Source: Marinobacter arenosus
GTDB lineage: Bacteria; Pseudomonadota; Gammaproteobacteria; Pseudomonadales; Oleiphilaceae
Length of the DNA: 64,000 nucleotides
Reading direction: 5' to 3'
Assembly: GCF_019264345.1 (NCBI RefSeq)
Contig: NZ_JAHVAO010000001.1
Coordinates: 124,001 to 188,000, forward strand
Of the stretch, positions 23,110 to 27,850 are shown one piece after another. Within the stretch, counting starts at the first letter, position 1; every line of letters starts with the position of its first letter. The translations under genes were made by a program, and so were the position numbers. The notes under the pieces are model-generated. The model saw only the letters and a program-made list of their open reading frames with translations, was not told where the DNA came from and did no database searches.

Positions 23110-24984
23110 ATGCTGAACAAGTATCCTCTTTGGAAAAACCTGGTCATTCTGGTCGCTCTCGTGATCGGGTTTATCTATGCCTTGCCTAATCTTTTCCCCG
23201 ACGATTATGCCATCCAGATCACCGGTGCTCGCAGCAGTACCGAGGTCAACTCAACCGTTCTCGATCGCGCTGTCAAGGCGCTGGAGTCTGAGGGCATCGA
23301 GGTAAAAAGCAGCACGCTTCAGGATCGGGATGCCCTGATTCGCCTTACCAGTGGAGAGGATCAGCTTCAGGCCCGTCCGGTTGTTCAGTCGGCACTGAGC
23401 AACGATTACCTGGTCGCACTTAACATGGCGCCCTCAACGCCTGATTGGCTGAAAAGCCTCGGTGCGGGCCCGATGAAGCTTGGTCTGGATTTGCGCGGTG
23501 GTGTTCACTTCCTGCTGGAGGTGGATATGGAAACTGCCTTGAATACCCGTCTCGAAGCGCTGTCCAGCCAGATTAAAGGTGATCTTCGGGAAGAGAGGAT
23601 CCGGTATCGCGGCGGCGACGTTGAAGGTCAGCGGCAAATCGTTCTTTCCTTCCGTGATGAACAGTCGCGTGCCGAAGCGTTTGATCTGATCCGCGCCCAG
23701 TACAACCAGTTCCTGATGGATGAGAGAACGGTGGAGGACGAGCGACAGATCGTGCTCTCGCTGTCCGAGGCCGAGGTTAAATCCATCCAGGAATACGCGC
23801 TCGAGCAAAACCTCACCACGATCCGCAACCGCGTCAACGAGCTGGGCGTTGCTGAGCCGCTTGTTCAGCGTCAGGGTGCTGATCGGATTATCGTGGAATT
23901 GCCGGGTGTGCAGGATACCGCCCAGGCCAAGCGGGTCCTGGGCGCGACTGCAAACCTCGAGTTTCGCCTGGAGGCCCGTCAGGACGCATCGGCCAGCGAG
24001 GTTGAGGAATTCAGTTTCCGTGATAACCCTCAGCGTACAGCGCGGCTTGAGCGTGACGTGATCACGACCGGTAACAATGTTGCGAACGCCCAGCAGGCGT
24101 TTGACGAGAACGGTCAGCCTCAGGTCAATATCACCATGGATTCGGTTGGCGGTGATCAGATGAACCGTGCGACCCGGAACGCCATCGGTCGCCGTATGGC
24201 TGTGCTCTTCATCGAATTCCGTACAGAAACCGAAACCCGGATGGTGGACGGGGAGATGACGTCCGTCGACAAGCGTGTCGTAGAAAAGGGCATCATCAGC
24301 CTGGCAACCATTCAGTCCGCACTGGGCAGCAGTTTCCGGATCACTGGCCTGGATTCCATTCCGGAAGCGGCAGAGCTGGCGCTGTTACTCCGTGCGGGTG
24401 CGCTGGCCGCACCGATGTATTTCGTTCAGGAGCGCACGATTGGTCCAAGCCTGGGGCAGAAAAACATCGATGCCGGTGTGATGTCGGTAGCGCTTGGTTT
24501 CGGGCTGGTGCTTCTGTACATGCTGGTGTATTACCGGGGCTTCGGTCTGGTGGCCAACGTTGCGCTTACCCTAAACCTGATGTTGTTGATCGCCTGCATG
24601 TCCATCCTCTCGGCGACGCTTACGCTTCCGGGTATCGCCGGTATCGTACTGACGGTAGGTATGGCAGTTGACGCCAACGTGCTGATTTTTGAACGAATAC
24701 GCGAGGAGCTCAAGGCAGGCGTTCCGCCTCAGTCGGCCATCAATTCCGGGTATTCGCGGGCCTTCGTGTCCATTTTTGATGCCAATATCACGACCTTGCT
24801 GGTCGCGGTGATTCTGTTTGCCATGGGTTCCGGCCCGGTGAAAGGGTTCGCGGTCACCTTGTGCCTGGGCATCCTGACCTCGATGTTCTCGGGGCTGATG
24901 GTCAGTCGCAGCATTGTGAATTTTGTATATGGCGGTCGAAAGATCGAGAAGTTGTCGATCGGAGGAAAGCTGGCAAATGTCTGA
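23110..24984 (+). CDS. secD: protein translocase subunit SecD
   Basis: RND-type membrane component that uses proton motive force to pull proteins across the inner membrane. 624 residues, with a first span (LVILVALVIGFIYALPNLFP), a large periplasmic P1 head (about 35-440, beginning with the KLGLDLRGGVHFLLEVD motif at about 120), and five clustered C-terminal spans containing TVGMAVDANVLIFERIREE. The stop overlaps the secF start. Confidence 0.97.
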   Translation: MLNKYPLWKNLVILVALVIGFIYALPNLFPDDYAIQITGARSSTEVNSTVLDRAVKALESEGIEVKSSTLQDRDALIRLTSGEDQLQARPVVQSALSNDYLVALNMAPSTPDWLKSLGAGPMKLGLDLRGGVHFLLEVDMETALNTRLEALSSQIKGDLREERIRYRGGDVEGQRQIVLSFRDEQSRAEAFDLIRAQYNQFLMDERTVEDERQIVLSLSEAEVKSIQEYALEQNLTTIRNRVNELGVAEPLVQRQGADRIIVELPGVQDTAQAKRVLGATANLEFRLEARQDASASEVEEFSFRDNPQRTARLERDVITTGNNVANAQQAFDENGQPQVNITMDSVGGDQMNRATRNAIGRRMAVLFIEFRTETETRMVDGEMTSVDKRVVEKGIISLATIQSALGSSFRITGLDSIPEAAELALLLRAGALAAPMYFVQERTIGPSLGQKNIDAGVMSVALGFGLVLLYMLVYYRGFGLVANVALTLNLMLLIACMSILSATLTLPGIAGIVLTVGMAVDANVLIFERIREELKAGVPPQSAINSGYSRAFVSIFDANITTLLVAVILFAMGSGPVKGFAVTLCLGILTSMFSGLMVSRSIVNFVYGGRKIEKLSIGGKLANV

Positions 24985-25930
24985 GAAAGAGAAGAAACCA
25001 TTTGATTTCATGGGGTTCCGGAAGCTTGCTTCCGTTCTCTCGGTCACGTTGCTGGTTGCCTCCGTCGTGTTGCTGGCGGTTCGGGGCCTAAACCTGGGCA
25101 TGGACTTCACGGGCGGTACGTCGGTGGAATTCGAGTATGCCGAAGCACCGCAGCTGGATGAAATTCGTTCCACGCTGACCGAGGCAGGCTACGAGCAGTT
25201 CGTCGTGCAGAATTTCGGTGCCGATACCACCGTGCTGGTTCGACTCGCTGAGGCTGGTAACGATGAATTGGCGGTCGAGGTGACCGAGGCGCTGACGGCC
25301 GGTGGGGAAAGCCTTGAGCTGATCAGCTCCGAGTTCATTGGCTCCCAGGTTGGCGAAGAGCTGAGAGAGGACAGTGGCCTGGGACTGTTGCTTGCGTTGG
25401 CGGTGGTACTGATCTATGTCGGTATGCGATTCCAGTTCAAGTTCGGCATCGCCTCTGTCCTTCCGTTGGCCCACGACGTGATCATCGTCCTGGGCGTGTT
25501 CGCACTGTTCCAGTGGACCTTCGACCTGACGGTTCTGGCGGCCTTGCTGGCAGTCATCGGCTACTCCCTGAACGATACCATTGTTGTGGCTGACCGGATC
25601 CGGGAAAACTTCCGCAAAATGCGGGTGGGGGATTCCTGGCACGTCATCAATACCTCCATTCACCAGACCATCAGCAGGACAATCAACACGTCCGGTACGA
25701 CGCTTGTCGTTCTGTTCGCGTTGTATCTGTTTGGGGGCGAAGCTATCAATAACTTCGCACTGGCGCTGATTATCGGGGTGGTTGTCGGTACCTACTCGTC
25801 CATCTACGTGTCTGCAAATCTCTTGATTGCGTTTGGTGTGTCGCGGGAAGACCTGGTACTTCCGGTAAAAGAGGGTGCCGCGGACGCCGAAGAAGAGGAG
25901 CAGCCGCCGGAGTGGCTGAACCGGATGTAG
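24977..25930 (+). CDS. secF: protein translocase subunit SecF
   Basis: 317 residues from the ATG at 24977, behind GGAGGA at 24961-24966; it overlaps the secD stop by 8 bases. First span near 20, GLNLGMDFTGGTSVEFEY in the periplasmic part, and SLNDTIVVADRIREN plus NTSGTTLVVLFALYLFGGEAINNFALALIIGVVVGTYSSIY in the C-terminal membrane bundle. Complex partner of SecD and YajC. Confidence 0.97.
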   Translation: MSEKEKKPFDFMGFRKLASVLSVTLLVASVVLLAVRGLNLGMDFTGGTSVEFEYAEAPQLDEIRSTLTEAGYEQFVVQNFGADTTVLVRLAEAGNDELAVEVTEALTAGGESLELISSEFIGSQVGEELREDSGLGLLLALAVVLIYVGMRFQFKFGIASVLPLAHDVIIVLGVFALFQWTFDLTVLAALLAVIGYSLNDTIVVADRIRENFRKMRVGDSWHVINTSIHQTISRTINTSGTTLVVLFALYLFGGEAINNFALALIIGVVVGTYSSIYVSANLLIAFGVSREDLVLPVKEGAADAEEEEQPPEWLNRM

Positions 25931-26001: not shown

Positions 26002-26814
26002 TCAGCGGGGCAGGCGACCCCGGAACGGGTGCAGTGCTTTCAGCACTTCACGGAACAGCTTGGGGTTGGCCACAACCAACTGGCGGGCGCCAGCCGTTGA
26101 CGGGTTGCCGGAGAAGTCGCCCGTCAGGGCGCCTGATTCCATGGCAATCGTTACGCCAAGATCCAGGTCCACGGTCTCCGGGCGGAAGATGACGGCCGCG
26201 TCCAGGTTGCCGGCAGATACGCGGGCAATGTCCAGAACCACACAGCCAGAAGTGCGGAACATCGCAGATTCACGGGCGAGGACGGAGGCCATTTCACCCC
26301 ACAATTGAGTGTCTTCGCTTCTGCGCGCCTGATCCAGCAGGTTGGTGGCAATGGCAGCCTTGTTGGCGTGCTTGATGTCGGACGCCCGAACTCGACGGCT
26401 GTTCAGTGCAGCTCCGTGTCCGCGGCTGGCGGAATACTCTTCGCCGGTTACCGGGTTGATCACCAGAAGGTTCTCGGTACGGTTGTTCTTTTTCTGGGCC
26501 AGGGCCAGGGCAAATTCCGGGATGCCTCTCAGAAAATTCTCGCGACCAAGAACCGGGAAGACGTGCCAGCTTCGTTCGCTGGTACCCGCATTCGCTTCAT
26601 TCAGAGGGGCGATGCTGTGGTCCTTGTAGGCCTTTTCGAGTTGCTCCGCAAAGTTGTCGTAAATCGACTGCTCGACCCGGTCCAACTGACGGCGGCGTTC
26701 CTCGTCGTCCTTGCCGGTGGGTTCCTGGCGCTCGAAATGGGCTTTCAGATAGTCGGACCCCTGACGCGCGACGCGCAGGGCCATTTTAATAGCTGGTTGC
26801 ATCTGAGTGTTCAT
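26002..26814 (-). CDS. suhB: SuhB-type inositol-monophosphatase family protein, metal-binding motif lost
   Basis: 270 residues, alignable to E. coli SuhB over its full length (from MQPAIKMALRVARQG against MHPMLNIAVRAARKAG), with the expected location beside trmJ. The catalytic signature is gone: the usual DPLDGTTNF is FPVLGRENF here, so both Asp ligands are replaced, the ITEESG Glu region reads IAPLNEANAG, and the third metal site (RPWDFAAG) reads RPETVDLDLG. By family knowledge this cannot bind the two or three Mg ions needed for phosphatase activity. I infer that the retained role is the activity-independent one of SuhB in rRNA antitermination with Nus factors. Confidence 0.85.
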   Translation of the reverse strand: MNTQMQPAIKMALRVARQGSDYLKAHFERQEPTGKDDEERRRQLDRVEQSIYDNFAEQLEKAYKDHSIAPLNEANAGTSERSWHVFPVLGRENFLRGIPEFALALAQKKNNRTENLLVINPVTGEEYSASRGHGAALNSRRVRASDIKHANKAAIATNLLDQARRSEDTQLWGEMASVLARESAMFRTSGCVVLDIARVSAGNLDAAVIFRPETVDLDLGVTIAMESGALTGDFSGNPSTAGARQLVVANPKLFREVLKALHPFRGRLPR

Positions 26815-26941
26815 TATCCGGGTGTGTGAAGGCCGGGTATCATAGCAAAAGATCAGGGTGCTTGTATGTTTTTTGACTTAGCAATAGCACGGATACCAAA
26901 GGATTACGGCATCTCCGGACGGGCGGGACATGTTGGTTTTC

Positions 26942-26950
26942 TGCTATCAT
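26942..26950 (+). promoter_or_regulatory. extended -10 promoter of trmJ
   Basis: TGCTATCAT is an extended -10 element (TG-N-TATCAT) 36 bases before the trmJ ATG. No good -35 is visible at the right distance, which extended -10 promoters tolerate. Confidence 0.5.
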
Positions 26951-26986
26951 GCCCGCCTCAATTAATTCAGTCTGGACCCATACTCA

Positions 26987-27850
26987 ATGCACAAGCCGGC
27001 ACTTCCCCTGGAGGGCACTGACTCATTTCAGGATCAGATCCGAATCGTTCTGGTCGAGACCTCTCATTCAGGCAACATTGGTGCGGTGGCTCGTGCCATG
27101 AAAAACATGGGGCTCGGGAATCTGTGGCTGGTCAACCCGAACTCTTTCCCGGACGAGGCGTCTTACGCCCGTTCCTCGGGCGCGTCCGATGTGCTGGATC
27201 GGGCAAACGTTGTGTCGTCCCTGGACGAGGCGCTTGCGGACTGCGTTCTGGTAATGGGAACCAGTGCCCGGGGGCGGAAAGTGCCCTGGCCAGTCATTGC
27301 GCCCCCGGAAGCGGCTGTGGCAGCCTCGGAAAATGCCGCCAATGGCCCGGTGGCACTGGTGTTCGGGCGGGAGAATCACGGCCTGAGCAATGAGGAGCTG
27401 CAACGCTGTCATTACCACATTCACATTCCCTCCAATCCCGATTACAGCTCCCTGAACCTGGCGATGGCGGTTCAGGTTATGTGTTATGAGCTCAGGATGC
27501 ATTTTCTTCGTGGCCTTGAAGGTGGTGAGGGGAGCCCATACCTAAAGCCCATGACGTCGCCGGGTGATCCGGGCTGGGACGTTCCACCCGCACCCGTGAA
27601 CGATGTGGAAGGTTTCTTTGGTCACCTTGAGCAGGTGTTGGTGGACGTCGAATTTCACCGGCGGGAAAATCCTCGTCAGCTCATGACACGCTTGCGGCGA
27701 TTGTTCCAGCGCGCGAGACTGGACCAAATGGAAATTAATATACTCAGAGGCATACTGACGTCAGTGCAAAAGGCCGCTGGCGCCAAGGCTGACAACAAAA
27801 CAACCGAGGCCGATCCAAAGGCGACGGGGCAGGACAATGGCCATGTTTGA
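26987..27850 (+). CDS. trmJ: tRNA (cytidine/uridine-2'-O-)-methyltransferase TrmJ
   Basis: SPOUT-class methyltransferase modifying position 32 of tRNAs. 287 residues; conserved [33 protein letters not shown] at the N-terminus, the knot segment [50 protein letters not shown], and a C-terminal helical domain. Divergent from suhB, the arrangement known in many gammaproteobacteria. The tail after about 265 is Lys/Asp-rich and poorly conserved and runs into the cysE start. Confidence 0.96.

Follow-up and report, generated by a model that had tools for sequence, protein, structure and literature searches.

The window, the whole stretch of 64,000 nucleotides of Marinobacter arenosus DNA analysed here (contig NZ_JAHVAO010000001.1, positions 124,001 to 188,000), encodes a SuhB protein without the inositol-monophosphatase (IMPase) metal site, and we consider it probable, at roughly 0.8, that this protein is a pseudophosphatase kept as an rRNA antitermination (Nus) factor, representing a natural separation of function. 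Besides being a phosphatase, SuhB serves in rRNA synthesis, and arguments over whether the phosphatase is important there have drawn on E. coli mutants. A lineage that has no active site but retains the NusA contact would give an evolutionary answer to this question, and in such site-less SuhBs the two jobs would already be separate. The idea that the two functions have been separated in nature, raised in the earlier note on this DNA, is favoured by the loss of metal ligands, the linkage to trmJ, the retained SuhB-specific residues, the AR2 contact, the presence of AR2 in NusA and purifying selection. The features of the window are the following.

26002..26814, minus strand: suhB orthologue (270 aa) lacking the metal site of inositol monophosphatases
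26533..26559, minus strand: F86-F94, FPVLGRENF replacing DPLDGTTNF (D84 to F86, D87 to L89, T89 to R91), from the alignment
26599..26604, minus strand: L71-N72, aligned to the E. coli metal ligand E67 and to E68; loop two residues shorter
26167..26172, minus strand: V215-D216 replacing W211-D212, Asp retained
26041..26052, minus strand: R255 to L258, corresponding to the NusA-AR2 contact residues K251 and L254 of E. coli
26386..26394, minus strand: R141 and R143, corresponding to E. coli R139 and R141
26764..26796, minus strand: P7, R14 and R17, corresponding to E. coli P3, R10 and R13, present in SuhB whether or not the metal site remains and rare in paralogues
26987..27850, plus strand: trmJ, divergent from suhB, orthology marker
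24923..25930, plus strand: secF (longest ORF), flanking suhB on the side away from trmJ

The window protein is SuhB by descent. Its 270-residue open reading frame starts with ATG, is free of frameshifts and lies beside the divergent trmJ at 26987-27850, so that the earlier description of a full-length gene keeping its neighbour is correct; the same divergent trmJ-suhB arrangement is found in E. coli. The protein matches the Pfam Inositol_P family (PF00459) at 73.5 bits against a cut-off of 27, its structural model keeps the IMPase fold, and its closest solved structures are the Nus factor SuhB of P. aeruginosa (PDB 8wip, 8wdq) and E. coli SuhB, itself a Nus factor and inositol monophosphatase (PDB 6IB7, 6IB8, 6TQN), to which it is 25% identical; the fold comparison gave no separation of SuhB from other IMPases. 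All the marks of SuhB orthology are present, namely the PF00459/IMPase fold, grouping with canonical SuhB, and a neighbourhood containing both trmJ and secF. Since trmJ lies within the flanks of 25 of the 36 canonical rows, and either trmJ or secF in 30, the neighbourhood marker is not universal. The protein scores 104.9 bits against the NCBIfam equivalog NF008027 and thereby misses its cut-off of 332, which is weak evidence, because just one of five canonical Pseudomonadales SuhBs (346.4 bits) passes it, the others scoring 331.9, 320.9, 258.1 and 240.6 bits.

With E. coli K-12 SuhB (locus L144) as the reference for residue numbering, Glu67, Asp84, Asp87 and Thr89 are replaced in the window protein by L71, F86, L89 and R91, and R184 by T188. 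Of these positions E67, D84 and D87, together with D212, are the metal ligands of the IMPase family, as known for human IMPA1 and SuhB. P. aeruginosa SuhB, unlike the window protein, has complete DPLDGTTNF and GEE motifs. The earlier note had read FPVLGRENF in place of DPLDGTTNF with both metal-binding Asp residues gone, and the alignment bears this out (D84 to F86, D87 to L89). It had also called the ITEESG and WDFAAG regions altered, which stands for the E67-E68 loop, now shortened and replaced, and for the W and AA adjoining the third site, but not for the third metal ligand itself, since D212 is present as D216. By every ligand test but D212 the Marinobacter protein is not an IMPase, and judging from its sequence catalysis has presumably been lost. 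The loss of the metal site makes the automatic annotation of such genes as inositol monophosphatases misleading.

The loss is general in the genus. A suhB search of 124 Marinobacter genomes found a match in all of them, near full length and at least 62% identical in 121; the match in G076 (82% complete) was weak and paralogue-like (best E 4.2e-11), and that in G063 only a fragment. In G001 the suhB match (C1:1559723-1560531) runs through two overlapping frames and contains a TGA, which may be a frameshift, a sequencing error or a young pseudogene. Residues were read at 109 loci, giving 86 distinct proteins, a set that leans to the better matches and mostly leaves out the most diverged members of the genus. 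None of the 86 proteins retains E67, D84 or D87. The D84 position is F in 86/86, and the D212 position carries an acid throughout, D in 78 proteins and E in the other 8. The altered loop, too, shows conservation, with G88 in 86/86 and R at the T89 position in 82/86. Because F occupies the Asp84 position in every one of these proteins, the sequencing error that had been held out as a possible refutation is excluded and the loss is genuine. The record of one protein within this set, 88% identical to that of the window, is titled Halomonas sp. SAT58 (L046, a metagenome bin), and its name is probably wrong.

Beyond Marinobacter, the GTDB family comprised 39 genomes in 15 other genera, of which 29 were searched again and 28 yielded an orthologue that was read. 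E67 or D84 is retained in none of these 28, and the D87 position is D in three and E in one; in G139 (68% complete) a SuhB orthologue was not found. A local loss in one strain is ruled out by this distribution across Marinobacter and its family.

The alignment across a wider group, which the earlier note had suggested as a check, shows that the loss runs through the entire GTDB family, as far as it was sampled, and affects eight others in part. E. coli SuhB found a match in 384 of 390 genomes of the order, and 53 of these genomes (26 + 27) were examined, mostly picked for a weak best match and hence not a random sample. Eight further families have a trmJ-linked site-less SuhB, and two of these also have intact ones. 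Specifically, site-less trmJ-linked proteins occur in all genomes examined of families f36 (7/7), f26 (4/4), f7 (2/2), f37 (8/8) and f38 (8/8), and in f6 in the six read of eight examined, the locus covered in the other two being that of a paralogue. In f44, four of five genomes are site-less and the fifth (L209, genus g127) is intact; in f39, both g93 genomes are site-less and G374 is intact. Intact SuhBs were found in f35 (3/3) and in G454 of f15; in three other f15 genomes (G176, G217, G363) a trmJ-linked locus was not found, and the f12 locus, an intact-looking fragment, was excluded from the counts. The 30 best-scoring loci of the order search are all intact, as expected from a ranking by score against E. 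coli SuhB.

A further 24 outliers were taken from a class scan (370 genomes, match in 365) and from the order. Outside the order, replaced ligands together with trmJ or secF linkage were seen in G554, G539, G658, G755 and G782, while G562, G575 and G681 are linked to these genes but intact; most other outlier loci read have no such linkage. The five site-less linked proteins from outside the order (L269, L272, L280, L281, L287) come from genomes of 1.1 to 1.8 Mb. Within the order, this set added four more f6 genomes and a trmJ-linked fragment in f8 (G486, genus g144; L273), which has RQ for EE and reads DPLAGR. G503, of the same genus, has a strong match to E. coli SuhB (1.2e-85), and the loss in G486 is possibly very recent.

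The way in which the motif is replaced varies between lineages. At positions 67-84-87-89-212 the window protein reads L-F-L-R-D, f36 proteins R-E-H-Y-D (7/7), f26 proteins R-D-Q-Q-E (4/4), f44 proteins R-D-x-N-x (4/4) and several f37 proteins E-N-D-x-E. These last (among L205-L212) keep E67, D87 and an acid at D212 with D84 and T89 replaced, so that f37 looks like a half-eroded state. Such partial retention, with one to three of the four acids left in some families (three in 5/70), and the persistence of D216 in the window protein are what could be cited for an enzyme that is still a phosphatase and holds its metals through other residues. We consider this very unlikely, as E67, D84 and D87 are found in 0/86 Marinobacter proteins, T89 is replaced in all or nearly all, and the replacing residues differ between families.

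Selection on suhB is strongly purifying (median dN/dS 0.039), which agrees with the earlier inference that the gene is maintained as a protein. Together with the 86 Marinobacter proteins, this value rules out a sequencing error or a pseudogene. In a SuhB tree of 70 rows, built with the catalytic columns omitted, four paralogues split from all 66 SuhB rows with support of 100/100. Forty of the 45 site-less rows (f1, f6, f7, f26, f36, f37 and f38) fall into one group, with support of 87/95, below the starred level; f44 and the g93 genomes of f39 stand apart from it, and the tree makes the intact g127 protein the sister of the site-less f44 proteins (93/52). The site-less label requires two changes on this tree, and the AU test does not reject placing all 45 in a single clade (p 0.101); on the NusA tree it requires five, at least two of them forced by starred branches. 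Since fast-evolving rows may attract each other, a single main loss is likely without being proven.

The residues through which SuhB meets NusA are retained. In E. coli, changing SuhB K251 and L254 lowers binding to NusA-AR2 more than thousandfold, and AR2 contacts contribute to antitermination (PMC6614801). K or R occupies the K251 position in 37/37 canonical proteins, 69/70 site-less proteins from outside Marinobacter and 86/86 Marinobacter proteins (155/156 over all site-less proteins), compared with 1/12 intact paralogues. Additionally, K or R at K251 combined with a large hydrophobic residue at L254 is found in 36/37 canonical, 63/70 site-less and 86/86 Marinobacter proteins and in 0/12 paralogues. 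The 12 paralogues exclude CysQ, and two of the 70 site-less entries (L110 and L119) are one gene.

Several residues elsewhere in the protein follow the same pattern. P3 and R139 are present in 193/193 SuhB proteins of all kinds and in 2/12 and 5/12 paralogues, respectively, R141 in 191/193 and 4/12, G232 in 188/193 and 0/12, and R10 in 184/193 and 1/12. Conservation of 90% or more among 21 non-redundant canonical proteins is seen in 78 columns; 26 of these count as SuhB-specific, their residue occurring in at most half of the paralogues. Across 55 non-redundant site-less proteins, the canonical residue is kept at a mean of 0.64 in the 26 SuhB-specific columns and 0.58 in 41 general ones, so the specific columns as a class are only slightly better kept, and at 0.19 in the five catalytic columns; some SuhB-specific columns are lost (D118 0.09, G225 0.22). 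The own-majority mean is 0.28 for the five catalytic columns, 0.68 for the 26 SuhB-specific ones and 0.44 for all 267 columns. Both catalytic figures (0.19 and 0.28) are partly so by construction, because weak similarity and loss of acids served to select the site-less proteins from outside the family.

These columns bear on whether site-less SuhB has taken up a different job, in which its old pocket would bind RNA, a protein or a new ligand and the Nus role would be lost or minor. Such a job would suit the very low dN/dS and the conservation of the altered loop within Marinobacter (F at D84 86/86, G88 86/86, R at T89 82/86). Against it, a comparison across families puts the catalytic columns near the bottom in conservation among the formerly conserved ones, with the qualification just given, and K251, R139, R141 and R10 stay; we therefore regard a new job as improbable.

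A second question is whether another IMPase stands in for SuhB. The second canonical IMPase that the earlier note had proposed looking for does exist in the window's genome: L001 has intact DPIDGTVNY and WDFAA motifs, and one further PF00459 protein, L002, is CysQ (313.8 bits, cut-off 228.8). Both share the PF00459 fold family with the window SuhB but differ from it in keeping the catalytic acids and in having no trmJ linkage; L001 also lacks the AR2-contact residues, with A and R at the K251 and L254 positions. One may thus ask whether L001 took over the SuhB role and left the trmJ-linked gene a relic, seeing that L001 has all ligands and an RRxGSAAL motif and reaches 152.7 bits on the NCBIfam IMPase model, more than the 104.9 bits of the window protein. 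That motif is described as typical of SuhB (PMC5516325). We give such a take-over very little credence: the tree separates the paralogues from all SuhB rows (100/100), none of 12 has both AR2-contact residues, they lack the SuhB-specific residues, and 0/13 adjoin trmJ. In a PF00459 search of 28 genomes (25 site-less and three canonical controls), the site-less SuhB is the only match in four of the 25 (G210, G373, G480 and G527, 99 to 100% complete); SuhB is likewise the sole match in one control, G347. Nor is a dN/dS of 0.039 what a relic would have.

Taken together, a retained Nus role is the most economical explanation of what keeps site-less SuhB, with binding and antitermination predicted from sequence. 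SuhB would no longer be a Mg-dependent phosphatase but a structural Nus factor, whose C-terminal helix (R255/L258 here) would bind the AR2 domain of NusA as in E. coli; it would help to position NusB/NusE on boxA in the rRNA leader and to protect rRNA while it is transcribed and folds, and its catalytic pocket may have drifted once the activity was unneeded. Pseudoenzymes are proteins in which an enzyme fold is retained for binding after loss of catalytic residues; site-less SuhB resembles them in keeping the fold and differs in that the function kept is proposed to be its already described second job. More tentatively, SuhB may in much of Pseudomonadales have become a dedicated transcription factor, with most of the loss of catalysis falling in one ancestor, the surface towards NusA and a set of SuhB-specific arginines frozen, and the emptied pocket reworked in each lineage into a new contact site. 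If so, P3, R10, R13, R129, R139, R141, G232 and K251 would map the complete Nus surface of SuhB; the list of SuhB-specific residues in any case supplies candidates for its still unmapped parts.

Separation of the two functions was foreshadowed by E. coli genetics: phosphatase activity is reported not to be required there to relieve the effects of suhB mutants (PMC6614801), and the IMPase activity has no obvious metabolic use in E. coli (PMC4807359). To find the separation in nature, so widespread and with the NusA contact retained, would be new. Site-less SuhB is undescribed in the open-access literature searched, and prior notice elsewhere is possible, most subscription journals lying outside that scope. 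The same literature held nothing pairing SuhB with pseudoenzyme, pseudophosphatase or Oceanospirillales, or inositol monophosphatase with pseudoenzyme; texts matching SuhB and Marinobacter either treated HisN or contained 'suhb' only as letters within a written-out pronunciation.

The partner of SuhB is present as well. Among 30 genomes in which NusA was read, all 30 have a C-terminal AR2-like stretch, and Trp490-Phe491 is WF in 29; in the window's genome, too, NusA carries AR2 together with W490-F491. Since the RNAP alpha CTD and NusG are likewise bound by AR2, little can be concluded from the retention of this domain by itself. The exception is a single case, G412: its NusA has MF for WF, and its SuhB (L230) is the sole site-less protein in which the K251 position holds neither K nor R. 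In G264, of the same genus, NusA WF and the SuhB K251 residue are both retained. It is through W490-F491 that AR2 recognises SuhB and other partners (PMC7171158).

Scans for promoters and terminators around suhB found none of either. E. coli suhB is reportedly repressed by the Nus complex and is said to have a boxA leader; in the suhB-trmJ intergenic stretch of the window (26815-26986), by contrast, a boxA-like GCTCTTTA was not seen by eye. The one assembled rRNA contig of the window's genome does contain a boxA-like CGCTCTTTAAAA (L296:103-114), found by eye about 140 bases before 16S and matching what we take to be the E. coli boxA sequence at 10 of 12 positions; a pattern scan that demanded TG at the start did not list it. 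Just ahead of it, at L296:45-72, lies a promoter-like pair, TTGACA-16-TAGAAT, likewise seen by eye.
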